A stretch of DNA of 64,000 nucleotides, taken from positions 1 to 64,000 of the forward strand of contig CAMOVK010000001.1 in NCBI GenBank assembly GCA_946627325.1, written 5' to 3'. Below the pieces are notes generated by a model. The model saw only the letters and a list, made by a program, of their open reading frames with translations, did no database searches and had not been told where the DNA came from. The position numbers and the translations under genes were made by a program. Positions within the stretch are counted from its first letter, which is position 1; each line of letters opens with the position of its first letter. Of this stretch, positions 1,483 through 62,067 are shown piece by piece. The stretch is from an uncultured Prevotella sp. (GTDB lineage Bacteria; Bacteroidota; Bacteroidia; Bacteroidales; Bacteroidaceae).

Positions 1483-2457
1483 TTATCTTTTTCTTATGAT
1501 TTTCTTATTGTTGATTATGCTTATGTTGGAGTGTTGTTGTGCGTTTTGTGTTGTTAGTTTTCTGCCTTGTAGGTCGTAACAAGTCGTGTTGTTCGATGCT
1601 TGTTGTGTTTGTTTGTCGTTTGTTATTTCTTCGATTGCCGATGGTTTTTTCTGATATACTCTGACGTAATCTACTCTTGATATGTATGTATGGTCTGTTT
1701 GTGCTTTTGCTGCCCATGAGCCGTCGCCCACGCTTTGGTTTACTATGATATAGAAGTCGTGGTCGAATGGCCATTGTCCTTGTTCCAGGTGTGATTGGTT
1801 TGTCGATTTTTTGTATATTCCTTTCACGTTTCCATCTACGCTCCATGTGAGTTGGTCTTCTGTCCATTCGAGGCTATATACGTGCCATTGGCTGATGTTG
1901 CAGTATTCTGAGAAGCTCGACTTTGGGTTGTTTCTGTTTCCGAGTGTGTATGTCCAGTTAGTGTGTATGGTGTGGTATGCAGTGTTTGCTGCATCTATTG
2001 ATTCGAAGATGTCTATTTCTCCTCCTTTTGGCCACGACTCTGCTGGTGGTTGTGGCATCATCCATGCTGCAGGGAAGCTGCCTTTGAAGGGTTCTACCTG
2101 CATTCTTATATCTACTTTTCCGTATGTGAATGAGAATTTGTCGCGCGTTTCGACTGCTCCTGTGAGCATATCGGCGGTATCGGTTTCTTTGTCGTTATTA
2201 GGTATGGCTTTTAGCACGAGGCATCCGTCTTCGATGTAAGCCACTTCTTCGGAGTTGCTTATCCACCTATTCCATGTTGATGAGTATCTGCGCGAACGTT
2301 GCCACTTGTCGCTGTCGGGCTGACTCCCATCAGGCTGGTCGAATTCGTCGGCGAAGACGAGGGTGTAGTCATCGGTTGTTGATTGTGCTTTGACTGATTG
2401 GCTGAACGCGATAACTGCCATTGCGGTTATGGCGGATAAAAACATTATTCGTTTCAT
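1483..2457 (-). CDS. Glycoside hydrolase family 16 (beta-glucanase/laminarinase-like), secreted, with YDLQGRKL-type C-terminal tail
   Basis: Signal peptide; GGEIDIFESID catalytic motif; VFADEFDQPDGSQPDSDKW start; C-terminal CYDLQGRKL...IINNKKIIRKR. Confidence 0.9.
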   Translation of the reverse strand: MKRIMFLSAITAMAVIAFSQSVKAQSTTDDYTLVFADEFDQPDGSQPDSDKWQRSRRYSSTWNRWISNSEEVAYIEDGCLVLKAIPNNDKETDTADMLTGAVETRDKFSFTYGKVDIRMQVEPFKGSFPAAWMMPQPPAESWPKGGEIDIFESIDAANTAYHTIHTNWTYTLGNRNNPKSSFSEYCNISQWHVYSLEWTEDQLTWSVDGNVKGIYKKSTNQSHLEQGQWPFDHDFYIIVNQSVGDGSWAAKAQTDHTYISRVDYVRVYQKKPSAIEEITNDKQTQQASNNTTCYDLQGRKLTTQNAQQHSNISIINNKKIIRKR

Positions 2458-2510
2458 ATTTCTATTTGTGAGTTTTTTATTTCTGCAACTATCTCTTTTT
2501 CAACGAGTTC

Positions 2511-2593
2511 GGATAGATGTTCTTTTCGGCTCGAAAAGATATGCTTTCCGACTTGGAAAGGTATGCTTTTCGCGGTGGAAAGTCATGCTTTCC
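2511..2593. repeat. 22-bp-period palindromic array, copy 1 (4 units; first unit degenerate)
   Basis: Units at 2511 ggatagatgttcttttc, 2533 gaaaagatatgctttcc, 2555 ggaaaggtatgcttttc, 2577 ggaaagtcatgctttcc; starts exactly 22 bp apart. Confidence 0.9.
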
Positions 2594-2647
2594 AAATTGC
2601 AAGTCACATCAATAGCTTTTCGCAAAGATAGTTTTTTATATTGAATA

Positions 2648-3652
2648 ATGTATATTTATTTGTCGAAAAATGTTTCAGTAGATACAATAAAAGCGAAAAT
2701 CGAGCGTTATTTCATCGTGCGATGGCGCAAATACATATTGCTCCTCATGCTGACAATGGCTGTTTCGGGCTGGGCTCAGTATGATGTTCCCTTTAGTCAC
2801 TATTGGGACATGGAGCCTGCATACAACCCCGCAGCGGTAGGCAAGGAGACTGTTCTGAATGCAACAGGCGCTTATGCCATAGACTTTGCTGGCTTTGAGC
2901 ATAATCCGCAGACGATGTATTTCGCTGCCGATATGCCCTTCTACTTCCTCAAGTCGTATCATGGTGCCGGCGTTTCGTTCATGAACGACCGCATAGGAGT
3001 GTTCACGCACCAACGTATGCAACTGCAATATGCCTACAAGTTCAACCTGTTTGGAGGCACATTGAGCCCTGGTATCGGACTGGGACTCATCACCGAAAGT
3101 TTTGACGGCTCAAAGCTTGACCTCGAAGACTCGAGCGACCCAGCCTTCTCGACAGCGCAACTCGACGGCAACACCTTAGACATTGCAGCCGGACTTTACT
3201 ACACCCACAAGTCGTGGTACGTAGGACTGTCGGCGCAACACATAACTGCACCGCTCATAGAACTGGGCGAAACCAACGAACTGAAAATAGACCCGACATT
3301 TTATTTCACCGCTGGATACAATATAAAACTAAGAAATCCGTTTTTATCTATACACCCCTCTGCCATCGTGCGCTATGATGGTGTTGGCTATCGAGGCGAC
3401 ATCACTGCCCGACTGCAATACACCCACGACAAGCGACGAATGTATGCAGGCATAGGATGGAGTCCAACAAACAGCGTAACGGCTTACATCGGAGGACTGT
3501 TCCATGGCATAAACATCGGATATAGCTATGAGATGTACACCTCTGCCATCAACCCAGGCAACGGAAGCCACGAACTGATAATAGGCTATCAAACAGACAT
3601 CAACCTAACAAAGAAAGGAAAAAACAAACACAAGAGCGTCAGATACCTCTAA
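2648..3652 (+). CDS. porP: PorP/SprF family type IX secretion system membrane protein (true start probably downstream of 2648)
   Basis: QYDVPFSHYWDMEPAYNPAAVGKE...YNIGYSYEMYTSAINPGNGSHELIIGY is typical PorP/SprF; located directly upstream of gldK. Confidence 0.92.
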   Translation: MYIYLSKNVSVDTIKAKIERYFIVRWRKYILLLMLTMAVSGWAQYDVPFSHYWDMEPAYNPAAVGKETVLNATGAYAIDFAGFEHNPQTMYFAADMPFYFLKSYHGAGVSFMNDRIGVFTHQRMQLQYAYKFNLFGGTLSPGIGLGLITESFDGSKLDLEDSSDPAFSTAQLDGNTLDIAAGLYYTHKSWYVGLSAQHITAPLIELGETNELKIDPTFYFTAGYNIKLRNPFLSIHPSAIVRYDGVGYRGDITARLQYTHDKRRMYAGIGWSPTNSVTAYIGGLFHGINIGYSYEMYTSAINPGNGSHELIIGYQTDINLTKKGKNKHKSVRYL

Positions 3653-41315: not shown

Positions 41316-41744
41316 TTATCCTACTGATATCTGTCGGGCAACTGTCACCTCCTCCTTGATTATTTTAGGCAATGTGACTGTAAGTACTCCGTCATCGACT
41401 TTTGCTTCTATCTTGTCTTTATCTACATCGTCGGGCAGTATAAGTGTCTGTGAATACTTCGAATAGGCAAATTCTCTGCGCAGGTAGCGAGCCTTCTGAT
41501 CCTCGTCCTTCACTTCGCGTTTGCTCTCCATTTTGATAGTAAGATTGCCTTCGTGGTTGATGTTTACGTCGAAATCTTCTTTCTTCATGCCTGGTGCAGC
41601 AAGCTCCACTCTATAGTTTTTTTCTGTCTCTATCACGTTGATGGCAGGTGCCGTAGCATTCGTACGGGGCATGAAATCTGTGTTGAAAAAGTCGTTGAAA
41701 ACTTCTGGCAGCCAGTTGCTGCGGTGCATTGTTGGGTACATCAT
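41316..41744 (-). CDS. Hsp20/alpha-crystallin family small heat-shock protein
   Basis: YRVELAAPGMKKEDFDVNINHEGNLTIKME...AKVDDGVLTVTLPK. Confidence 0.96.
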   Translation of the reverse strand: MMYPTMHRSNWLPEVFNDFFNTDFMPRTNATAPAINVIETEKNYRVELAAPGMKKEDFDVNINHEGNLTIKMESKREVKDEDQKARYLRREFAYSKYSQTLILPDDVDKDKIEAKVDDGVLTVTLPKIIKEEVTVARQISVG

Positions 41745-41880: not shown

Positions 41881-41963
41881 GAAAAGATATGCTTTCCGCG
41901 TTGGAAAGATATGCTATCCAACTTGGAAAGGTATCCTTTCCGAGTCGAAAAGGCATGCTTTCC
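41881..41963. repeat. 22-bp-period palindromic array, copy 2 (4 units)
   Basis: gaaaagatatgctttcc (41881), ggaaagatatgctatcc (41903), ggaaaggtatcctttcc (41925), gaaaaggcatgctttcc (41947); exact 22-bp spacing. Confidence 0.93.
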
Positions 41964-42121: not shown

Positions 42122-44626
42122 ATGAAAACCAACCTTCTCGGCTTTTGTATTAAGTCGTTCGTTCTGGTATGTTTCGTCATTCAATCGTCAATGCTCCTTG
42201 CGCAAGGAACCGTTCGTGGCAAGGTACTCGACAAGTCGAACGACGAACTGATGCCTTATGTAAGTGTAGTAGTCAACAATAAATCAGATGGCAAGTTCAT
42301 TAAGGGTGCCATAACCGACGAAAGCGGGCAGTTCAGCATAGCCGACCTGCCACTCGGCAACTACCAACTCGTAGTAACATTCGTAGGATATAAAGACCTG
42401 AAGCGCGATTTCGCAATCACCGACGCACGCCGGACACAAAACTATGCAGCCCTGTATCTATCGGAAGACTCGAAACAATTAAGCGAAGTGACCGTAATGG
42501 GGCAACGCTCCGGAGTGAAACTCGAAGTTGACCGAAAATCGTTCGACGTAAGCCAAGACATCGCCAATGCAGGAGGAGCAGCCTCAGACGTGCTCGAAAA
42601 CATCCCATCGGTAGAAGTCGATAACGACGGAAACATCTCACTACGAGGGAACTCAAGCGTAGAAGTCTGGATAAACGGAAAAGCAAGCGGACTGACAAGC
42701 GACAACCGATCACAAATCCTACAGCAACTTCCAGCAGAAAGCATCGAAAGAATAGAAGTAATCGACAACCCATCTGCTAAATTTTCGGCTGAAGGCTCGG
42801 CAGGAATAATCAACATCGTGCTGAAAAAAGACCGCAAGGCGGGATACTACGGCTCAATTCAAGCAGGTGCTGACAACAGACACGGAGCAAACACCAGCGG
42901 CAACATAAACTACAACAGCCGACTAATCGACACATATTTTAATATAGGATTCAGACACCGAGACAGCAAACGAAACGGAAAAAGCTATCAAGAAACCTAC
43001 GCTAACGACCAATATCAACACTACCTCTCAAAAACACACGACAGAGGAAACAACCTGTTCACTCGCGCAGGCATCACACTCCACGCTACAGACAAGGATG
43101 ACTTCACACTCGCAGGAATGATGATGCACGGAAAAAGAAACGAATCGGGAGCAACACCATACCACTACGGAAACATCTCCACTGGCGAAGACTATATGCT
43201 CATGCATCGCTCAACACATTCGGGAGGACAAATGCACATGTATCACGGAGAAGCTGGATACAGACACGAGTTCAGCACCACACACTTCATCGACCTGCAA
43301 GTGGACTACAACAAATGGAAATCAGACAACAACAGCTACTACCAAGACTCAACAACCATAATAGGCAGAGAACAAAGAACATACTCCTACCAGTATCGAC
43401 CAATGCACATCAACAATCAATCGTGGGAAGTGAAACTCGACTACGAAAACGCATTCACACCAAAACTGAAACTACAAACAGGATATCAAGGCAAATTCTC
43501 GAAAGAGAACACACCGCAAGAATCGTTCATAGGCAACTTATATGACGGCACCGACGCTACAGAAGACACAGGATTCTACAACCGATTTATATACAAAATC
43601 GACACCCATGCAGCCTATGCAACCATAACAAGCAACTTCGGAAAGTTCGGACTGATGGCAGGATTACGAGGAGAATACTGGCGAGTAAACACAGAAAGCT
43701 ACTCATGGGAACAAGAACACGATGCATCGAAGAGAGAAAAACCATTCAAAAAAGACTACTTCGAACTATTCCCAAGCCTATTCCTGTCATACCAGATGAC
43801 ACCAACACAACAACTACAACTTAACTACACACGACGATTGAGAAGACCATGGGGAGGAGAACTCAACTCATTCCGCGACACAAGAGACGCATCAATGATA
43901 CAGTTTGGTAACCCACAACTTACACCGGAGTTCTCAAACTCATTCTCACTGAACTACCTTAAAACATGGACAGACCACTCACTGCTCGTCAGCGCATACT
44001 ATCGACCAACAACCGACGTTATACAACGCATCAAATGGCAAGCACAAGACGGAGTGATGTATCAAACTAACATGAACGTAGCAGAAAGCAACAGCTCGGG
44101 ATTAGAAATCGTTTTGAAAAACAAACTCTTCCGAATTATTAACCTGACAACAACAGCCAACGCATACTACTACCACCTCGACGGATTTACACACAACGTA
44201 GATGGATACATCGTAACAGGAGAAAGCGACCAAAACTTCACATGGAACGCAAGAATGCAAGCAAGCATAATGTTGCCTTACGACATCACAATGCAACTGA
44301 CAGGAAACTACAGAGCACGACAAGTAATCACTCAAGGATATAGAAAAGCTGGATACAGCGTAGATTTCGGCGTGAAAAAGAACTTCTTCAACAAGCAACT
44401 CACAGTCGCACTCAACAGCCGCGACATATTCAACACACGCAAATGGAGAAACGTTGTAGAAACTGCAGACTTCTTCCGCGAATCAGAATTCTGGCGTAAA
44501 GGAGGACGGATAAACCTCACACTAACATGGAATTTCGGAAACACAAAGAGCAAACGACCACAAAGAGATGAAAGTGGAGACGACGATATGAATGATGCAA
44601 GTGGATACGGAAGCATGGAACAATAA
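42122..44626 (+). CDS. TonB-dependent receptor with N-terminal carboxypeptidase-regulatory-like domain
   Basis: GTVRGKVLDKSNDELMPYVSVVV; LENIPSVEVDNDGNISLRGNSSVEVWING plug; beta-barrel repeats. Confidence 0.93.
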   Translation: MKTNLLGFCIKSFVLVCFVIQSSMLLAQGTVRGKVLDKSNDELMPYVSVVVNNKSDGKFIKGAITDESGQFSIADLPLGNYQLVVTFVGYKDLKRDFAITDARRTQNYAALYLSEDSKQLSEVTVMGQRSGVKLEVDRKSFDVSQDIANAGGAASDVLENIPSVEVDNDGNISLRGNSSVEVWINGKASGLTSDNRSQILQQLPAESIERIEVIDNPSAKFSAEGSAGIINIVLKKDRKAGYYGSIQAGADNRHGANTSGNINYNSRLIDTYFNIGFRHRDSKRNGKSYQETYANDQYQHYLSKTHDRGNNLFTRAGITLHATDKDDFTLAGMMMHGKRNESGATPYHYGNISTGEDYMLMHRSTHSGGQMHMYHGEAGYRHEFSTTHFIDLQVDYNKWKSDNNSYYQDSTTIIGREQRTYSYQYRPMHINNQSWEVKLDYENAFTPKLKLQTGYQGKFSKENTPQESFIGNLYDGTDATEDTGFYNRFIYKIDTHAAYATITSNFGKFGLMAGLRGEYWRVNTESYSWEQEHDASKREKPFKKDYFELFPSLFLSYQMTPTQQLQLNYTRRLRRPWGGELNSFRDTRDASMIQFGNPQLTPEFSNSFSLNYLKTWTDHSLLVSAYYRPTTDVIQRIKWQAQDGVMYQTNMNVAESNSSGLEIVLKNKLFRIINLTTTANAYYYHLDGFTHNVDGYIVTGESDQNFTWNARMQASIMLPYDITMQLTGNYRARQVITQGYRKAGYSVDFGVKKNFFNKQLTVALNSRDIFNTRKWRNVVETADFFRESEFWRKGGRINLTLTWNFGNTKSKRPQRDESGDDDMNDASGYGSMEQ

Positions 44627-46481: not shown

Positions 46482-47135
46482 TTAAAGTTCGAGTAGTCCG
46501 TCGCGCATTTTCACTGTTCTGTCGGTTGTTGCTGCGAGTTGTTCATCGTGTGTTACGATGACGAATGTCTGTCCCATTTCATCTCGAAGTTTGAAGAATA
46601 GTGAGTGTAGTTCTTCTTTATTTTGAGTGTCGAGGCTTCCTGATGGTTCGTCGGCGAGTATCACTGCGGGGTTATTTATCAGTGCTCTTGCCACTGCTAC
46701 TCGTTGTTTTTCTCCTCCTGAGAGTTCGTTTGGTTTATGGTTTGCTCTACTTTCGAGGTTCATAAACTTGAGTAGCTCGTTTGCTCTTTGTTTTGCTTCA
46801 GCCTTTGGTCGTTTTCCTATGAGTGCTGGCATCATGACGTTTTCTATTGCGGTGAATTCTGGCAATAGTTGATGGAATTGGAACACGAATCCGAGTCGGT
46901 TGTTTCTGAAGTCGGCGAGTTTGTTGCTTGTTAGTTGGCTGATGTCTGTTCCGTCAATGATGACTGTTCCTGTATCTGCTTTGTCGAGTGTTCCCATTAT
47001 TTGGAGTAGTGTTGTTTTTCCTGCTCCACTTGGTCCGACGATGCTCACTATTTCTCCTTTGTTTATTGTAAGGTTTATTCCTTTGAGGACTTTTAGTGTT
47101 CCGAATGATTTTGTTATGTTATTTAGTTCAATCAT
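46482..47135 (-). CDS. ABC transporter ATP-binding protein (LolD-like)
   Basis: [21 protein letters not shown] Walker [33 protein letters not shown]. Confidence 0.94.
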
Positions 47136-49278
47136 GTATCTTTTGTTTTATTTTTCTCATCCATTCTATTACCATTTGGTATGCGCTCATTTCTTCTTGG
47201 TGTCTTGACTCTGCGAAGGTCATTGCTTCCATTTGTTCTCCGTATTGGTCAGGAAAAACGATCATTATTGTTTTTCCGCTGAAATGTTGTTCTATTTCGT
47301 CTGGCAGTCTTTCGAGTGCTGTTTTATATGACACTGTTCCTTTTCTTGCTGCTACGACTACTAACATGTGGTCTTCTGCTATCGTTGCAGCCAGTCGTGG
47401 CAGTTCGTTCCAATGTGCCATGTATTCGTATTCTGCTCTTGCACTGTGGTGTCGGTTGTTGGTGTATTGTCTTATTAGTTCGAGTGATTCGTTTCTTCCG
47501 TGGAATACTATCCTGCAATCTGTGTTTTCTGCCAGTCGTGCCAATCGTTCCACCCATCTGTAGAATCCTGTTTCGTATTCGGCTCTTGATGGTACTACGA
47601 CTCTGATTAGTCGTAGTGTGTTGAGTGGTTGTTTTAGTCTGACGAATGTTATTTGTCTTGACAATCCGTTGTATAGACTTTGTGCAAATTCGCCCCAGAA
47701 CTTCGGAGATATATTTTTATGTATGTGCATTCCCATGATTATTTCCGAAGCATTGTATTCTTTGAATGCGTGTTTTATTCCGTTAGCGATATTTGCGGCT
47801 ACTCTCACTTGTGTTTGCATATTGATGTTTGCAGCTGCTGCTTTCTTGCGTAAGTTGTCGAGTAGTTGTCTGCCTTTTGCTTGATTGTCGATTCTTTTAT
47901 CGTCGTCGTAAACCACATTTACTGCCACGAGTTCTCGTCCGAGCTGTGGATTTCGTGTCATTGCTGCGAGAGATACGAGTCCTGTGGCTATGTCTTCGTA
48001 TTTCACTGGTAGCAGTATGCGTTCGTCGTCGCTTTCTTTGTCATTGTTACTGATATTGCCTCCTCCTTTGAGCAATATCTGTCGTGATGCATATTCTGTC
48101 ATCATTGAGCTGATTATGCAGGTGAATAGTATCATGGTTACTACTCCGTTGAGCATTGTATCATCGACGAGTGGTGTGCCGTCAGCATTGGTCAGTTTCA
48201 TTCCCACCATTGCCATTGCTATTGCTCCTGCTGCATGTGCCGATGTGAGTCCAAACATCATGTTGCCCGAGTATATTGGTAGGCGGAATATAAAGCATGT
48301 AACGTAGGCAGCTACGGCTTTGCCGAGTGTTCCGAATATCACTATCCATAGTACAATCCACATCGTTTCGGTGCTTTCGAAGAGCAATCTCACGTTTATC
48401 AACATTCCTACTCCTATCAGGAAATATGGTATAAACAGTGCGTTTCCTGTGAATTCGAGTCGGTTCATGAGTGCCGATAGTCGTGGTATGTATCGATTGA
48501 GTATCAGTCCGGTTAGGAATGCTCCGAGTATTCCTTCGAGTCCTACGGCTTCTGCCAGTGCTGCAGACAGGAAAAGCATCGCCAGCACGAATATGAACTG
48601 CATGATTGCGTCGGAATATCGGCGCAGGAACCATCGCGTCAGTCGTGGCATGAAGAATATAAGAGCGATATAGTAGGCTGATAGTTTCAATAGGAAAATC
48701 AGCCAAAAGACAATGCCGCTGGCGTTGCTGTCGTGCGTCCCTACCACTGCTGCCAGTATTACGAGCGCCGTAAACAGGGCTATCATCGACGATCCAACAC
48801 TCAGAGCGACGCTTCTTTCGCGTTGCAAACCATATCTGCCCACAACGGGATAGGCTATCAGAGTGTTCGCGCCCATGATGCTTCCAAGTATCAGCGAAGC
48901 CTGTCCCGAATAGCCGAGTAGCCATTCCGACACAGCATAGGTCATCAGAAATGGTATTCCAAAAGTAAGCAAGCCGAAGATAAAGAAGCGGACACTATTG
49001 CGCTTAACGCCCTGCATGTCCATTTCTAAACCTGCCAAGAACATGATATAGTAAAGTCCTACATTCCCGAAGAGTTCAAACGAGTCATCGCGCGAGAGTA
49101 TATTTAAGCCATACTGACCTACCAGCACTCCTGCAATGACCATACCTACAATGTGCGGAATACGTAGTTTGCCCATAACGATAGGAGCAAACAATATGAT
49201 GCAAAGCACTATGAAGAAAATAAGTGTAGGGTTTGAAATAGGAAGGGATATATGGAAAAAGTCGGACAACGTGCTCAT
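47128..49278 (-). CDS. Cation:proton antiporter (Kef/CPA2 type) with C-terminal cytoplasmic USP-like region
   Basis: [42 protein letters not shown]; many TM helices. Confidence 0.93.
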
Positions 49279-49373: not shown

Positions 49374-49456
49374 GGGGAGTATGCCTTTTCGGCTCGAAAA
49401 GCACGTCTTTCCAACTCGGAAAGCATATCTTTCCACGCCGAAAAGACATGCTTTCC
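49374..49456. repeat. 22-bp-period palindromic array, copy 3 (4 units)
   Basis: ggggagtatgccttttc (49374), gaaaagcacgtctttcc (49396), ggaaagcatatctttcc (49418), gaaaagacatgctttcc (49440); exact 22-bp spacing. Confidence 0.93.
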
Positions 49457-54951: not shown

Positions 54952-55827
54952 ATGCACTTTGCGATTTTCGGCAATCAGTATCAGGATTTCAAGGCCTCAG
55001 AACTTCATCGCGTCATTGATGTTTTGCGTGCTATAGGTGCTTCTTTTGCCATTGAGTCGGACTATGCTAAATATCTTTTCAGTCAGAATCTGATTGCAGT
55101 TTCCGATTTTTCCACTTTTTCTTCTAATGATTTTGATGCTGATTTTGCCATTTCGATGGGTGGTGATGGTACTTTTCTGACTGTTGCCAACCATGTCGGA
55201 GATAAGCAAATTCCCATCATTGGTATAAATACTGGTCGTCTTGGGTTTCTTGCAGACATTAGTCCGAGCAGTATCGAGACTTCTCTTCGATTGATTTCCC
55301 AAGGCGAATACGACATTGAGGAGCGCACTGTTATCAGTATCGAAGCCGATGGCAAGCCCCTCAGCGACAGCCATTGTGCTCTTAACGACATAGCCATACT
55401 CAAGCGCGACAATGCCTCGATGATAACTATCTCTGTTGAAATCAATGGCGAGCCCCTTACGGATTACGAAGCCGACGGTCTGATTGTGAGCACCACGACA
55501 GGTTCTACGGCATATTCTCTATCCGTTGGTGGTCCTATCCTCGTTCCTCAGACGGGCATACTGGCAATCACTCCTGTGGCTCCCCACTCTCTAAACGTGC
55601 GTCCTGTCGTTATTAGCGATTCTTCTGAGATAACGATGCGCGTGGAAAGTCGCACCCATCAGTATCTTGTTGCTATCGACGGACGTTCCGTTGACTGCAC
55701 AGAAGGCACTATCCTGACTATTAAAAAAGCGCCATACGTCATCCGCACCGTAAAGCGACGTGGACAAAGTTTTTTCAAAACCCTTCGCGAAAAGATGATG
55801 TGGGGGGCAAAATTTACCAATACATGA
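54952..55827 (+). CDS. nadK: NAD kinase
   Basis: MHFAIFGNQYQDFKASELHRVI; SMGGDGTFL; GINTGRLGFLAD; STTTGSTAYSLSVGGPIL. Confidence 0.95.
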   Translation: MHFAIFGNQYQDFKASELHRVIDVLRAIGASFAIESDYAKYLFSQNLIAVSDFSTFSSNDFDADFAISMGGDGTFLTVANHVGDKQIPIIGINTGRLGFLADISPSSIETSLRLISQGEYDIEERTVISIEADGKPLSDSHCALNDIAILKRDNASMITISVEINGEPLTDYEADGLIVSTTTGSTAYSLSVGGPILVPQTGILAITPVAPHSLNVRPVVISDSSEITMRVESRTHQYLVAIDGRSVDCTEGTILTIKKAPYVIRTVKRRGQSFFKTLREKMMWGAKFTNT

Positions 55828-57491
55828 AATTCAGAAAAGACAATTCTAAATACGGCATACGCCAGATTATCAAGTGGTTGTTGCGTGCTTGGCGTGGAAA
55901 TTATCTTCAAGCTACGCTCAATGGGCTTATTGGAGCTTCAGAAGTAGCAGTCAGTCTGGCTCAAGTATGGGCTATGAAGCACGCTATCGACATTGCCTCT
56001 CACCACACAGAGGGGTCGCTCTACTGGGCTGTAGCCATAATGGCGATACTTACTATTGCTACTTTTGCATTGGGCATTGCTGCCACTTGGATTCAAAACA
56101 TTCTCGGCATAGATGCTCAAAATCGTATGCAGCAGCAGACTCTCGACCGCATTCTACGTTCAGAGTGGCAGAACAAGTCGCGTATGCATAGTGGCGACAT
56201 GATTAACCGATTAGAGCTTGACGTGGCGAGCGTCATCAATTTTCTCACGATAACCATTCCCAGCCTCATCTCCACATTCCTTCTCTTTGCTGGAGCGTTT
56301 ATCTATCTTTATATGATGGACTCCCGTCTTGCCACAATCATCATCATAGCCATACCCTTCTTCTTGCTTTTAGGTCATGTATATATACGCCGTATGCGTC
56401 AATTAAACCGCAGCGTGCGCGAGACCGACTCTCAAGTGCAAAGCATTCTGCAAGAGTCTGTCCAGAACAGGATGCTCATCAAGACACTTGAGGGCGACAA
56501 CGACATAGTGGAACGACTCGAACACACACACAATGAGCTTAAGCAAAGAGTGGAGAAGCGCACTGCTTTCAACATCTCTTCACGTCTGATAGTCAATTCG
56601 GGCTTTGCTTTTACCTACCTGCTGGCATTTCTTTGGGCTGCCATAAGGCTGAGTGCCGACACTCTGTCGTATGGAGGTATGACTGCGTTTCTGCAACTCG
56701 TTTACAAGATTCAGACTCCTGCTCGTCAGTTGACCAGCCTCATTCCTCAAGCGGTTAGCGTGCTGACAGCCGTCGAACGACTGATGGAACTCGAAGAAGA
56801 CCCCCTCGAAGAGCAAGGAACACCGATATGGCTTGGCAACAGCAAATGTGGCATACGATTGGAAAATCTTACTTATCAATATCCCGGTGCCAACAATCTT
56901 ACTCTTCACGACCTCTCCTTCGATTTCCTTCCTGGCAAATGTACGGGAGTAGTTGGTTCCACAGGCTCGGGCAAGACCACTTTGGTAAGAATTCTTTTAG
57001 CACTATTTCATCCTCAGGAAGGAAGGGCTATCGTGTATAATGAGGATGGACTTGAACACGACATTTCGCCTCTCACGCGTTGCAACTTTGTCTATGTGCC
57101 TCAGGGTAACACTCTGATGAGCGGCACCATTCGCGACAATTTGCTCCTTGCCAAGCCCGATGCCACAGACGAAGAGATGCGAGAAGTATTGCAACAGAGC
57201 TGCTCCGAACACATATTCGACCTACCTTTGGGCATTGACACTCCCTGTACGGAGAAGGGAGGCGGCTTGAGCGAAGGTCAGTCGCAGCGAATAGCAATAG
57301 CCCGTGCACTGCTGCGCGACCGCCCTATAATGATTTTCGACGAAGCAACGTCGGCACTCGACATCGATACGGAGCGACAACTGCTGAGCAATATCCTTGC
57401 GAAAAGCAATAAAACAGTTATCTTCATTACCCACCGCAAGGCTGTGCTCAAATACTGCGACAACGTGCTTCACATTAATTCGCTCGACTAA
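55824..57491 (+). CDS. ABC transporter ATP-binding/permease protein
   Basis: TM domain plus GSTGSGKTTLVRILLALFHP Walker A and LSEGQSQRIAIARALLRDRPIMIFDEATSALD; ATGA overlap with nadK. Confidence 0.94.
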   Translation: MKFRKDNSKYGIRQIIKWLLRAWRGNYLQATLNGLIGASEVAVSLAQVWAMKHAIDIASHHTEGSLYWAVAIMAILTIATFALGIAATWIQNILGIDAQNRMQQQTLDRILRSEWQNKSRMHSGDMINRLELDVASVINFLTITIPSLISTFLLFAGAFIYLYMMDSRLATIIIIAIPFFLLLGHVYIRRMRQLNRSVRETDSQVQSILQESVQNRMLIKTLEGDNDIVERLEHTHNELKQRVEKRTAFNISSRLIVNSGFAFTYLLAFLWAAIRLSADTLSYGGMTAFLQLVYKIQTPARQLTSLIPQAVSVLTAVERLMELEEDPLEEQGTPIWLGNSKCGIRLENLTYQYPGANNLTLHDLSFDFLPGKCTGVVGSTGSGKTTLVRILLALFHPQEGRAIVYNEDGLEHDISPLTRCNFVYVPQGNTLMSGTIRDNLLLAKPDATDEEMREVLQQSCSEHIFDLPLGIDTPCTEKGGGLSEGQSQRIAIARALLRDRPIMIFDEATSALDIDTERQLLSNILAKSNKTVIFITHRKAVLKYCDNVLHINSLD

Positions 57492-57542: not shown

Positions 57543-57625
57543 GAAAAGGCATGCTTTCCGAGGTGAAAAGCATACCTTTCCAAAGCGAAAAGCTATGCTC
57601 CCCGAGTCGGAAAGCATAGCTTTTC
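57543..57625. repeat. 22-bp-period palindromic array, copy 4 (4 units)
   Basis: gaaaaggcatgctttcc (57543), gaaaagcatacctttcc (57565), gaaaagctatgctcccc (57587), ggaaagcatagcttttc (57609); exact 22-bp spacing. Confidence 0.93.
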
Positions 57626-57651: not shown

Positions 57652-60600
57652 TTATTTCCTTATCGTCATGGTTTTGCCTGTGGCATTATCACGAACGATA
57701 TACACACCTTGCGACAACGTCGAGAGTGCGTTCTTGCCAGTTGCTACTACCTGTCCGGATGTTGAATAGACTGTCAGCGAAGCGTCGGCGATATTCCATT
57801 TGTCGCCATTTACTTCGTTGATACCCACGATTACAGGAGTATTCGACAGTGGCGATTCGAGTTTATCCTCGCCATAGAGAGCCGTCACATTGAACGAATA
57901 TGTACCTGGCTCTGGCAGAGCAGTGTCGAACACTGTTGTCGAACCATTGATTTCGCCTACACAAACGTCGTTGACGTAGATGCGATAGCCCGTCACTGGC
58001 AGCGTCACTGCGGAGCCACTCGACTGCTCGAAACTAACATCGTCGAGCATAAGTCCCAAAGCATTGAAGGTAGTATGCTTAATAGCGAAATACTTAGCAC
58101 CATCGGGCAGAAGTATGCCGTTTTGTTCCCAAGCTGTATTCTTAACCGAGAACGAACCTAAATGCTTGAAGTTGGAGAGCTGACGGTCGGTATCGGAATA
58201 GTACACCTCGTAGGTTTCGTTTCCGAATTGCTGCGTTGGAGCCTTTGTATAGAAAGAAACTATCTGTCGCTTACCTGTCAGTTCTGGAGAGACTATCCAG
58301 TCGGCAGATCTTGCACCTACTGTTGCGGTAACGACAGGACACATCGACAAGAGATACTGACTGCCTGAATGAGGCATAAATCCTGCTTCCTCAACATTGT
58401 CAAAGACTACCTCTGGACGGAACACTTGCCAAGCCATTCGCTCACCGGCATGTTCGTAGGTAGATGAACCCGCAGAAACATAGGTCAGTTCGTTATCGCC
58501 ATCGTAAAGCATCCAGTCGCCCAATTCGCCATATCGATTGGTTTCCGTAATACCACCGACGCTAAACGCTGGGAACGTAGTAGTGTTGTCGAATGTTTCA
58601 GTTACAATCACTGGCAGGATTGTTGTAGCCTGTCCAGGTGATGTCCATTTGAGGTTTACCATTGGGTCTGTTGCCTCTGTCGCTACCAAGTCGTTTATTG
58701 CCGGCAAATCGTTTTGCACGGTGTAGAACGTAGAAGTAGATTCATTATTGTCGGCTTGCTGGTCGGCAGATGCGATTACAACACCTTTAAGAGTTGTGTT
58801 TTCTTGCCATGCAGCCGATGGAGAGAACTCAAATCGGAATTGCGCTTTACCAGTATAAGCAGCCAATTCGCTTCCCTGCTGCTCACCAAGCAGATGGGTA
58901 CGCACTACGTTGTTACCCTGTCCGTCAACCGTTTGATAGGTAGCCACGAGTTGCACCTTATAGTCTGCTGCTGCTTCGGCTCCGAGATTAGACACTTCGA
59001 CAATGGCAGACTGACTGGAGTTGACACGTCCTGCCATCGGGGCTGTCAGCGATGCAGAGAAATCGCGACTGCTCGTGCTATAAACTTGGATGTTGTCGAT
59101 AAGCGTACGGGTAGCTGCTTTTGCCTCAATACGGAAGATAAACACTGCGTAGTTGGCACCTGAAAGTGCATCGATATCGATAATTTCCTGACGCCATGCA
59201 GCCTCGCCCGAAAGCGACTTGAAGTCGATTGTCTTGATAAGTTCGTTGGGTTCAGCATTTTGTTCTACATTAGCGAAAATAGTCAGTGTAGCATCTGCTC
59301 CTGGCGTTGCTAAGTAGTCGAACACGAGTTTAGGCTTCACAGCTGTGCGCATATCGATTTTTCCCGACATGAGCGATATCACATCACCACGCATTTGAGT
59401 GTTCAGGGCTATAGAACCGCCATCGCCTTCGCTCGACTCTGATGCGAGTTCTACATCTCCAGCACCTTCACTGTCGAACGACCATATATGGTCAAGACTT
59501 CTACCTTTGAACGATTCTTTATACGGTAATTCATCTTTGTCGCCCACTACGAGTGATGCTATCACTTGCTGGCTCTCACCATAGTCGTTGAAGGCACTGA
59601 TGGCATACATCAAAAGGTCTTGTTTGCCCGTGTCTATATCAGCTATTCCTGCGTCATAAACGTTGTCGGTAGTTTGGTCTATCTCTGGCTGCAAATAGCC
59701 GTTGATAATTGGGAAAATCTTGTAAGTCACTCCCTCAGGGTCGGCAAAGCCTCCACGAGCGCCTTTGCCATCAGCTTTGTCCCACATAAGCACTGCTGTG
59801 TTATCACCATTATCCACTATGCGGAAATTGGAAGGAGGTGCAGGATAATCGCGTCCTACGAATGTAGAAATTATTGTTGCCTCTCCTCTGCCTGCTGCAT
59901 TATAAGCCACCACCGTGTAGGTATATGAACCTTCATTTGGGAAGTTGTCGTAAACATCGAATGTAGCACCAGGTGCAGGGTTGTTTTTAGTTGCCACAGC
60001 CTTTCCATCGCTACTGCGAGTGACTTCTATTCTGCTAATCGACTGCAGTGGGGTGCCTTCGCCTGTTGTTGTTGGAGCCGTAATATGAAGTGTTGCTGAG
60101 AGTGCCCCGTTGGGAGCATTCTCTATTTCCACTGCTGGAGCCGCAGGAGCCGACGTTTCTGTTACCTCTATTGAAAGGTCGGTCATCCACAGATAATAGT
60201 GGAAAGCGTTGCTTATACAGTGGAAACCGATGTAGTACAAACCATCGGTATCAACGGTGAAATCGGCACTATATGTACGATAGTCTTTGTGAGAGATTTC
60301 AAATGCGGGCAGTAGTTCTGTTGTCATCGCAGCAGCAGTATTGGCTTTGCCCATAAACACTTCGAGTTTCTCTGGGAAAGCTTCGTTATCGCAACTTGCC
60401 TTAAACGAGAGTCTGTATTGCTTTCCTTGTTGCATCTTCAGCGGCGGTGTAACGAGCCAGTCATCAGCACGATTGTTTTCGTTGAAGACATAGCCGACTT
60501 CGTTCTGATTGCCTATTCCCCATGAACTTCCATCGCCATTGGCATCAATGATGGTATAGAGGTAAATAGTATTTAAATCGCTGAAATTCTCGAAATAAGG

Positions 60601-62067
60601 AGGTATGATATACTCGCCCACCTTCACGTGTTGCGTTGCTCCATCGTTACTTTGCATACCCTGATGCACAGCTCTTACGAGGAAGGTATAGTAACGCAGT
60701 TGTTCGGTGTCGATTGTTGTTGTCCATGAAGTTGTGGTCAGTCCCTGCGCTACAACTTGTTGTTCGGGCAGTTGCATGATGGCATACGTAACCTTTGAAG
60801 GGTCGATTAGTCCACCATTTAATCCTTGCATTGGCGGTGCTGTCCATGAAACGGTGGCTTGATTGCCCTCTATTGTCAGTCGAACATCTTTAGGCGCAGC
60901 AAGGACATCTGGTCCCGACCATATTTTGAAGATATCGTCGGGGCTTGCACCTGCGGAGTTTGAGACTATAACTTTTATCTCGTGACTTCCCGTAGATATA
61001 TTGTTCTGCTGAATTGCTACGTGCTGGCCAGCAGGTGCTTGTCCGTTCTTGATTGTCTGGTTGTCTAATAATACAATATAGTTGACTTGTCCCGTGAGGT
61101 CATTACCTGCAAAAGTCTTTGTCGGTAGGTCGAAATCGATTGCGAAGTCGTTCATTTTTTCGAGCGTGTTCACAGCCTTGAAGTTGCTCACTCCTATAGG
61201 TGCCTCTGCCGCTGCCGATTGCTCTTCAACAGCCATAACGTTGATGTCGAGCGACGAGCGTATGGTGCCTACCTTCTGCGAAGCGGCTGTTGATAGGTCA
61301 ACCTCAATCATTGAGTATGAGTCATCGTCGAGGTGTCCTGCCCAATAGAGTTTGTTCGTTCTGCTGTCGATACATGCACTATGTTTGCCTATGCCTGGCA
61401 TGAAACCAGTAGAACCTATCATTGAGAATTCTCCAGTCTGTTTGTTGAACGAGTAGAGGGCTCCATCGAAATAACCTATGGCATAACACTTGCCGTCGTT
61501 TGTTGCTGCCATAGCTATCGGGCGCACATAGTTCTCCATGTTGACCGATGCCACCTTGACACGTGTCCAATTGTTATAGTCAACATATGCAATCTCGTAG
61601 GGATAGCCGTCGGCATGGTAGTACATACCATAAGCGCGTTTCGTGGCTTTGTCGTAGGCTGGGCTACAAACGGCATAATAGGCTGCTCTACCCCTATCAG
61701 TTCCGTTTTCAGAATAGGTCTGAGTAGAGAAGTTATAAGAATAGGAGCGCACCTTTTCCTCCGACGATGAGTATCGCTGGAAGTAAATCACATCTCCGTC
61801 AATGGCTCCACCAGCATTAGCTTCGAGTCCGCTGTCCTGCACGAGCAATTGGGGCATCAGGTTGGTGGTAGATAGGGTATATATACCATTTTTTGTACCT
61901 GCCGTATATTTGTCGGGCGTTGACATATTAACAACGAAATTGACCTGCTGTACAGCCTTTTTCTTTGTCAGTGCAGCACTGCCGTCGGCATTTCCCTGCG
62001 CCATAGACGACAATGGCAGGATTAACGCCAACGATAATGAGCGAAAAAATGTTTTAATCAGTTTCAT
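57652..62067 (-). CDS. Large secreted multidomain protein (FN3-like and choice-of-anchor-J-like domains) with T9SS C-terminal sorting domain
   Basis: Signal peptide MKLIKTFFRSLSLALILPLSSMAQ; FDNTTTFPAFSVGG...DWIVSPELTGKRQIVSFYTKA; C-terminal LTVYSTSGQVVATGKNALSTLSQGVYIVRDNATGKTMTIRK. Confidence 0.88.
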   Translation of the reverse strand: MKLIKTFFRSLSLALILPLSSMAQGNADGSAALTKKKAVQQVNFVVNMSTPDKYTAGTKNGIYTLSTTNLMPQLLVQDSGLEANAGGAIDGDVIYFQRYSSSEEKVRSYSYNFSTQTYSENGTDRGRAAYYAVCSPAYDKATKRAYGMYYHADGYPYEIAYVDYNNWTRVKVASVNMENYVRPIAMAATNDGKCYAIGYFDGALYSFNKQTGEFSMIGSTGFMPGIGKHSACIDSRTNKLYWAGHLDDDSYSMIEVDLSTAASQKVGTIRSSLDINVMAVEEQSAAAEAPIGVSNFKAVNTLEKMNDFAIDFDLPTKTFAGNDLTGQVNYIVLLDNQTIKNGQAPAGQHVAIQQNNISTGSHEIKVIVSNSAGASPDDIFKIWSGPDVLAAPKDVRLTIEGNQATVSWTAPPMQGLNGGLIDPSKVTYAIMQLPEQQVVAQGLTTTSWTTTIDTEQLRYYTFLVRAVHQGMQSNDGATQHVKVGEYIIPPYFENFSDLNTIYLYTIIDANGDGSSWGIGNQNEVGYVFNENNRADDWLVTPPLKMQQGKQYRLSFKASCDNEAFPEKLEVFMGKANTAAAMTTELLPAFEISHKDYRTYSADFTVDTDGLYYIGFHCISNAFHYYLWMTDLSIEVTETSAPAAPAVEIENAPNGALSATLHITAPTTTGEGTPLQSISRIEVTRSSDGKAVATKNNPAPGATFDVYDNFPNEGSYTYTVVAYNAAGRGEATIISTFVGRDYPAPPSNFRIVDNGDNTAVLMWDKADGKGARGGFADPEGVTYKIFPIINGYLQPEIDQTTDNVYDAGIADIDTGKQDLLMYAISAFNDYGESQQVIASLVVGDKDELPYKESFKGRSLDHIWSFDSEGAGDVELASESSEGDGGSIALNTQMRGDVISLMSGKIDMRTAVKPKLVFDYLATPGADATLTIFANVEQNAEPNELIKTIDFKSLSGEAAWRQEIIDIDALSGANYAVFIFRIEAKAATRTLIDNIQVYSTSSRDFSASLTAPMAGRVNSSQSAIVEVSNLGAEAAADYKVQLVATYQTVDGQGNNVVRTHLLGEQQGSELAAYTGKAQFRFEFSPSAAWQENTTLKGVVIASADQQADNNESTSTFYTVQNDLPAINDLVATEATDPMVNLKWTSPGQATTILPVIVTETFDNTTTFPAFSVGGITETNRYGELGDWMLYDGDNELTYVSAGSSTYEHAGERMAWQVFRPEVVFDNVEEAGFMPHSGSQYLLSMCPVVTATVGARSADWIVSPELTGKRQIVSFYTKAPTQQFGNETYEVYYSDTDRQLSNFKHLGSFSVKNTAWEQNGILLPDGAKYFAIKHTTFNALGLMLDDVSFEQSSGSAVTLPVTGYRIYVNDVCVGEINGSTTVFDTALPEPGTYSFNVTALYGEDKLESPLSNTPVIVGINEVNGDKWNIADASLTVYSTSGQVVATGKNALSTLSQGVYIVRDNATGKTMTIRK

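Follow-up and report, generated by a model that had tools for sequence, protein, structure and literature searches.

Evenly spaced arrays of four 22-bp palindromic units in an uncultured Prevotella, candidate platforms for an architectural protein

Results

Four arrays lie between genes of the window

The window is the whole 64,000-nucleotide stretch analyzed from this uncultured Prevotella MAG. Array 1 occupies the gap between a GH16 gene and a porP gene, a setting named in the original prediction and borne out by Pfam (Table 1). The four tandem units predicted there are recovered by TRF with a period of 22, and the three further intergenic copies of four units and 83 bp predicted elsewhere in the window are also present (arrays 2 to 4). 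A search with GRAAAGNNATGCTTTYC allowing ≤2 mismatches returned 16 matches in the window compared to 0.66 expected from shuffles, and the sole Rfam match in the window was a tRNA. The extent of the full element listed around array 1 was projected from the average of 63 arrays, not from array 1 itself.

Table 1. Arrays and neighboring features in the window.
Feature	Coordinates	Strand	Description
GH16	1483-2457	-	Pfam; neighbor of array 1
Probable full element around array 1	2464..2640	.	AT-rich blocks on both sides, centre 2552
Array 1	2511..2593	.	Four 22-bp units at 2511, 2533, 2555 and 2577
Interval without arrays	2594-41880		39 kb, the longest in the part of the genome read
PorP/SprF	2648-3652	+	Pfam; neighbor of array 1
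hsp20	41316-41744	-	Pfam; neighbor of array 2
Array 2	41881..41963	.	Four units, 83 bp, intergenic
TonB-dependent receptor	42122-44626	+	Pfam; neighbor of array 2
Na/H antiporter	47128-49278	-	Pfam; array 3 lies 95 bp upstream
Array 3	49374..49456	.	Four units, 83 bp, intergenic; unit 1 with GGGGAG arm
ORF of 166 aa	49658-50158		Adjoins array 3; no Pfam match; 39-bp coding repeats, Cys/Lys-rich, EKKDCCKKENAAV type
ABC transporter	55800-57491	+	Pfam; convergent neighbor of array 4
Array 4	57543..57625	.	Four units, 83 bp, intergenic; unit 3 with CTCCCC arm
Adhesin-like	57652-62067	-	Pfam; convergent neighbor of array 4

Unit anatomy and internal rules

The anatomy was defined by the consensus of 63 arrays of this MAG, in which the palindrome arms are near-invariant and the centres and spacers are variable. 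Set against the unit formula first proposed, GRAAAG-NNATG-CTTTYC, the opening unit of array 1 (2511) is degenerate (GGATAG-ATGTT-CTTTTC). The fixed NNATG centre of the formula does not hold: the centre alternates purine and pyrimidine (RYRYR or YRYRY in 208/252 units) and can be oriented either way. Spacers of 5 bp do vary, as was claimed, yet are constrained, mostly reading R-NNN-Y. The array is roughly symmetric around its middle spacer, and units 2 and 3 are coupled in their R/Y phase (27 RR, 26 YY and 4 mixed; P = 8e-12). Units 1 and 2 have a 5-bp centre word in common, in one orientation or the other (P = 0.0008), as do units 3 and 4 (P = 0.009). Such internal rules would be consistent with a two-plus-two pattern of protein contacts to double-stranded DNA. 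The dyads of both units and spacers fall on a base pair in this MAG and in the congeners G016, G010 and G012.

Watson-Crick matches across the unit dyads are rarer than expected, with 97 observed and 129 expected at positions 2-16 and 10 observed and 98 expected at positions 8-10. Complementarity is avoided within the unit (z = -9.4) and between units 2 and 3 (z = -6.4), and none of the hairpin schemes checked on the arrays exhibits compensation. Paired hairpins joining unit 1 to unit 2 and unit 3 to unit 4 were considered from the complementarity of the centres and rejected; whole-unit pairing did not differ from the null, and the signal was the 5-bp word common to the two units.

The helical phasing extends beyond the units. 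The average of the 63 arrays has AT-rich triplets at distances of 44, 55, 66 and 77 bp from the centre, with a weaker one at 88 bp, and the 11-bp phase also runs on past the units in G016. The flanks combine this weak AT phasing with a short TTT/AAA edge.

Arrays are numerous, intergenic and evenly spaced

The genome-wide scan proposed alongside the original prediction covered 1,142,329 of the 1,424,940 bases of this MAG (73% complete) and located 75 distinct arrays in 1.14 Mb, not merely the four of the window. Unit number and period are kept throughout: 63/75 arrays have exactly four 22-bp units (83 bp), 228/241 unit-to-unit steps are 22 bp, and just three perfect units stand alone in the sequence read. 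A period-blind scan of this MAG assigned period 22 to 50/53 tandem loci and detected no such loci in a 50-kb E. coli control.

The arrays are intergenic and placed without regard to gene orientation. Genes were predicted with a crude caller, and the arrays fall in 28 tandem, 23 divergent and 16 convergent gaps, close to the background of gaps ≥150 bp (109, 65 and 49). Array polarity follows no pattern with respect to gene strand or to neighboring arrays. The copies are thus many and noncoding, and no catalogued match was found, the reverse of the outcomes (few copies, coding location, a catalogued family) that the original prediction had set against itself. One array (G000:C21:12760-12842) lies 5′ of a gene judged by eye to be topoisomerase subunit A-like, and the same placement is seen in G012.

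Spacing statistics were calculated for two species, this MAG and G016, and the arrays are spaced more evenly than chance in both, for G016 in a dense 302-kb portion. The 48 within-contig intervals of this MAG have a mean of 13.2 kb, a median of 11.3 kb and a minimum of 6.6 kb. Their CV of 0.476 compares with 0.91 for random placement and with 0.78-0.86 for random choice of intergenic gaps (10,000 draws; P < 1e-4), a choice that would also yield ~16 intervals below 6 kb where none is observed. The dense 302 kb of G016 gave a CV of 0.51 against 0.90 (P = 1e-4), with 0 intervals below 3.5 kb and 8.3 expected. Over the full 520 kb of G016, two gaps without arrays (88 and 60 kb) make the overall CV unremarkable; these gaps are ortholog-poor, as acquired islands would be.

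One layout with different letters in other species

Of 398 other genomes in the family, including 32 congeners, none has a match to the palindrome of this MAG. A species-private family, first suggested by this palindrome search, was overturned by a de novo period search of the congeners: in their sequence stretches, the period-blind search finds the 22-bp layout again with other palindromes. At least three congeners (G010, G012 and G016) and another Bacteroidales genome, RGIG9954 (G436), have the 22-bp architecture with different palindromes. In the congener searches, models built from shuffled sequence failed to recruit a second array. A looser three-unit pattern scanned across 85,462 species found matches in Bacteroidales-type MAGs alone, the letters varying from one group of species to another.

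G016 has 41 arrays of TCANATTAC-NNN-GTAATNTGA in 520 kb. None of the 41 is coding in a gene set that is only 64% coding and includes an 8-kb masked stretch, so that some of the gaps scored as intergenic there probably hold missed genes; apparent 40-bp repeats in this genome proved to be a masked run of N. G012 has six arrays of AAAAGC-NNN-GCTTTT in 80 kb, G010 has six in 100 kb with gaps of mostly 11-12 kb or double, and RGIG9954 has many arrays of ARAAAGCCGTTCTTTCT with three to six units each. A relative with a 21-bp period, TTATC-N7-GATAA, occurs in G003 (L166 ~3185-3270) about 200 bp upstream of the antiporter ortholog. An array upstream of the Na/H antiporter ortholog is thus common to this MAG, G012 and G003, which is suggestive of positional conservation. 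The array positions of this MAG and G016 have 3 in common, and conservation between these two is not significant (Fisher P = 0.37). The system is not universal, because no arrays were found in 60 kb of G019 and only a single one in 396 kb of G437.

Other tandem repeats were seen in the same searches. G020 has one array with a 23-bp period (L191 ~11197) whose units match at 90% and are apparently not palindromic. BRZ_QL_bin133 and Onthomorpha (L077, L080, L096, L103, L108 and L118) have rarer arrays of 3-4 units at 22 bp, AAAAAGTCYRACTTTTT. Flanks recur between several of these loci, and at least one array is enclosed by a longer inverted repeat; the arrays look like a different, rarer kind. 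Three features escaped the original prediction: the regular spacing, flanks phased at ~11 bp and a palindrome that changes from species to species.

Discussion

A candidate platform for four dimers

We lean toward the reading that four dimers of a putative sequence-specific, lineage-variable architectural (nucleoid-associated) protein sit side by side on each array, which would be their double-stranded platform; such a platform was the first of three candidate roles in the original prediction. Because four palindromes follow one another at 22 bp, about two helical turns, the four putative dimers would face the same side of the DNA. With AT-rich blocks phased at ~11 bp in the flanks, ~170 bp of DNA would probably be bent or wrapped in the complex. 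The even spacing, together with a placement that ignores gene orientation, argues for a role in the chromosome rather than in transcription, and one platform per 7-15 kb, independent of gene direction, may provide regularly spaced anchor or topological-domain points. The putative binding protein would co-evolve with its sites.

An Lrp octamer would supply four dimers. Searches found no Lrp/AsnC protein in this MAG, a 73% complete genome, and 2-3 copies in each of G016, G012, G010, G003 and G436. With one paralogue compared per genome, the recognition helix SRAAIHQRVQHL is common to G003 and G010 and the helices of G436 and G012 are near-identical, despite different palindromes in each pair. 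Lrp was rejected because, in the paralogues compared, the recognition helices are alike where the palindromes differ. The poor fit of Lrp/AsnC, the insignificant overlap of array positions with G016 and the lack or scarcity of arrays in the stretches of G019 and G437 weigh against the platform reading.

Alternative explanations

It is unlikely that the arrays are a mobile repeat family, MITE-like or mobilized by a putative recombinase that binds the tandem sites, with target immunity keeping copies several kb apart. Transposition with immunity would fit the high copy number, the intergenic location and the 6.6-kb minimum spacing, and array positions differ between species. However, no conserved terminal inverted repeat was seen in the flanks and no internal region beyond the units, unit sequences vary between copies while the layout is fixed, the accessory islands of G016 have no arrays and viral contigs gave no array matches. 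The Y1/RAYT transposase (PF01797) was not detected in this MAG (73% complete), G012 or G003 (both 99%), all of which bear arrays; a PF01797 match is present in G010 and G016.

Two known families were compared directly. REP/BIME elements with RAYT in E. coli and Pseudomonas are short intergenic high-copy palindromes, of which BIME-2 bind gyrase and are proposed DNA organizers (PMC3733652). The arrays too are intergenic, palindromic and numerous but differ in their fixed four tandem 22-bp units, even spacing and variable positions that disfavor hairpins. REP/RAYT identity was rejected on the missing RAYT in three array-bearing genomes, the absence of a GTAG or CGTC tag at the palindrome foot of the 63-array consensus and the avoidance of complementarity; these results and the lack of conserved terminal repeats count against the REP/BIME-like mobile family offered originally as a second role. 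The BrickBuilt MITE of Porphyromonas gingivalis has 19 copies of tandem 23-nt repeats in variable number with the consensus AGAYCATARTATCCTCTCRTRTG, and a leader and tail whose terminal inverted repeats are common to IS elements (PMC4596501). BrickBuilt and the arrays are both intergenic, dispersed tandem repeats of Bacteroidales, but the array consensus is unrelated to AGAYCATARTATCCTCTCRTRTG and the four-unit rule replaces variable repeat number. The arrays therefore differ from a BrickBuilt-type MITE in each defining feature tested (terminal repeats, repeat number and consensus).

It is quite unlikely that the arrays are strong sites for DNA gyrase (or topoisomerase IV) that function as Mu SGS or BIME-2 do, holding gyrase at regular positions and evening out supercoiling. 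The ~10-kb array spacing resembles supercoil-domain size, and gyrase cleavage is reportedly species-specific, according to one study. In E. coli the gyrase motif spans 130 bp and is symmetric, its two arms having a phase of 10.75 bp (PMC6379681), and the array element likewise is two-fold symmetric with ~11-bp AT/GC phasing (this MAG, with the 11-bp phase in G016) and flanking arms of ~47 bp, features it shares with Mu SGS as well; the known sites depend on bending. In contrast, array dyads fall on a base pair in all four species compared, and the 4-bp staggered cleavage of gyrase places its dyad between base pairs. The array arms are near 100% base-specific and the gyrase motif is degenerate, the array core measures 83 bp against 36 bp for gyrase, and gyrase leaves unexplained the inner grammar of the four units. 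The four base-specific palindromes of the arrays and their regular chromosomal spacing also set them apart from known strong gyrase sites.

Loading sites for a ParB/Noc-like clamp that spreads along a few kilobases of DNA are improbable. Regularly spaced dispersed palindromes would allow such a protein to coat the chromosome, and CACGT is found among the unit centres, but a parS or Noc site is one palindrome, unlike the fixed, helically phased sets of four described here.

Tandem RNA hairpins or cruciforms acting as terminators or stability elements, the third role originally offered, are highly improbable: the folds of individual arrays are more stable than those of shuffled sequence (z -3.5 to -5.9) and terminator-like matches are present, but the fixed arms explain the fold stability, the variable pairs lack compensation, a third of the arrays lie between divergent genes rather than at gene 3′ ends, no array of the window matches Rfam, and the avoidance of complementarity within units and between units 2 and 3 means that hairpin, RNA and cruciform readings fail. 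CRISPR was rejected because its repeats need long unique spacers, and here 75 short arrays have 5-bp spacers.

Comparison with known systems

Bacteroidales dominate animal guts, and we know of no sequence-specific nucleoid organizer described in them. No description of such arrays was found in the open-access literature searched and none is known to us. Taken further, the four-dimer platforms may constitute a hitherto undescribed chromosome-organizing system of Bacteroidales, with platforms about every 10 kb, a fast-evolving putative nucleoid protein and a species-specific site alphabet on an invariant 22-bp geometry; we regard this broader proposal as tentative, at somewhat below an even chance. 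If true, it would provide an example from bacteria of numerous DNA sites changing rapidly and in concert under one layout. Regularly spaced, lineage-specific sites of fixed geometry would offer direct addresses for testing what sets ~10-kb chromosome domains, and since the array sites are predicted to the base, experimental tests would be straightforward in a cultured relative.

Noc sites, parS, SlmA sites and matS are palindromes scattered over the chromosome, each type recognized by an architectural protein of its own. They are single short sites, whereas the arrays are phased sets of four, and to our knowledge none of this type forms a fixed, phased tetrad whose letters vary by lineage. Plasmid iterons, such as the 22-bp iterons of R6K, are tandem sites with a 22-bp period and helically phased cooperative binding; they are direct repeats at one origin, whereas the arrays are palindromes at about 100 chromosomal places. 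In spirit, the proposed platform system resembles centromere satellites, which likewise keep their function while their sequence changes.
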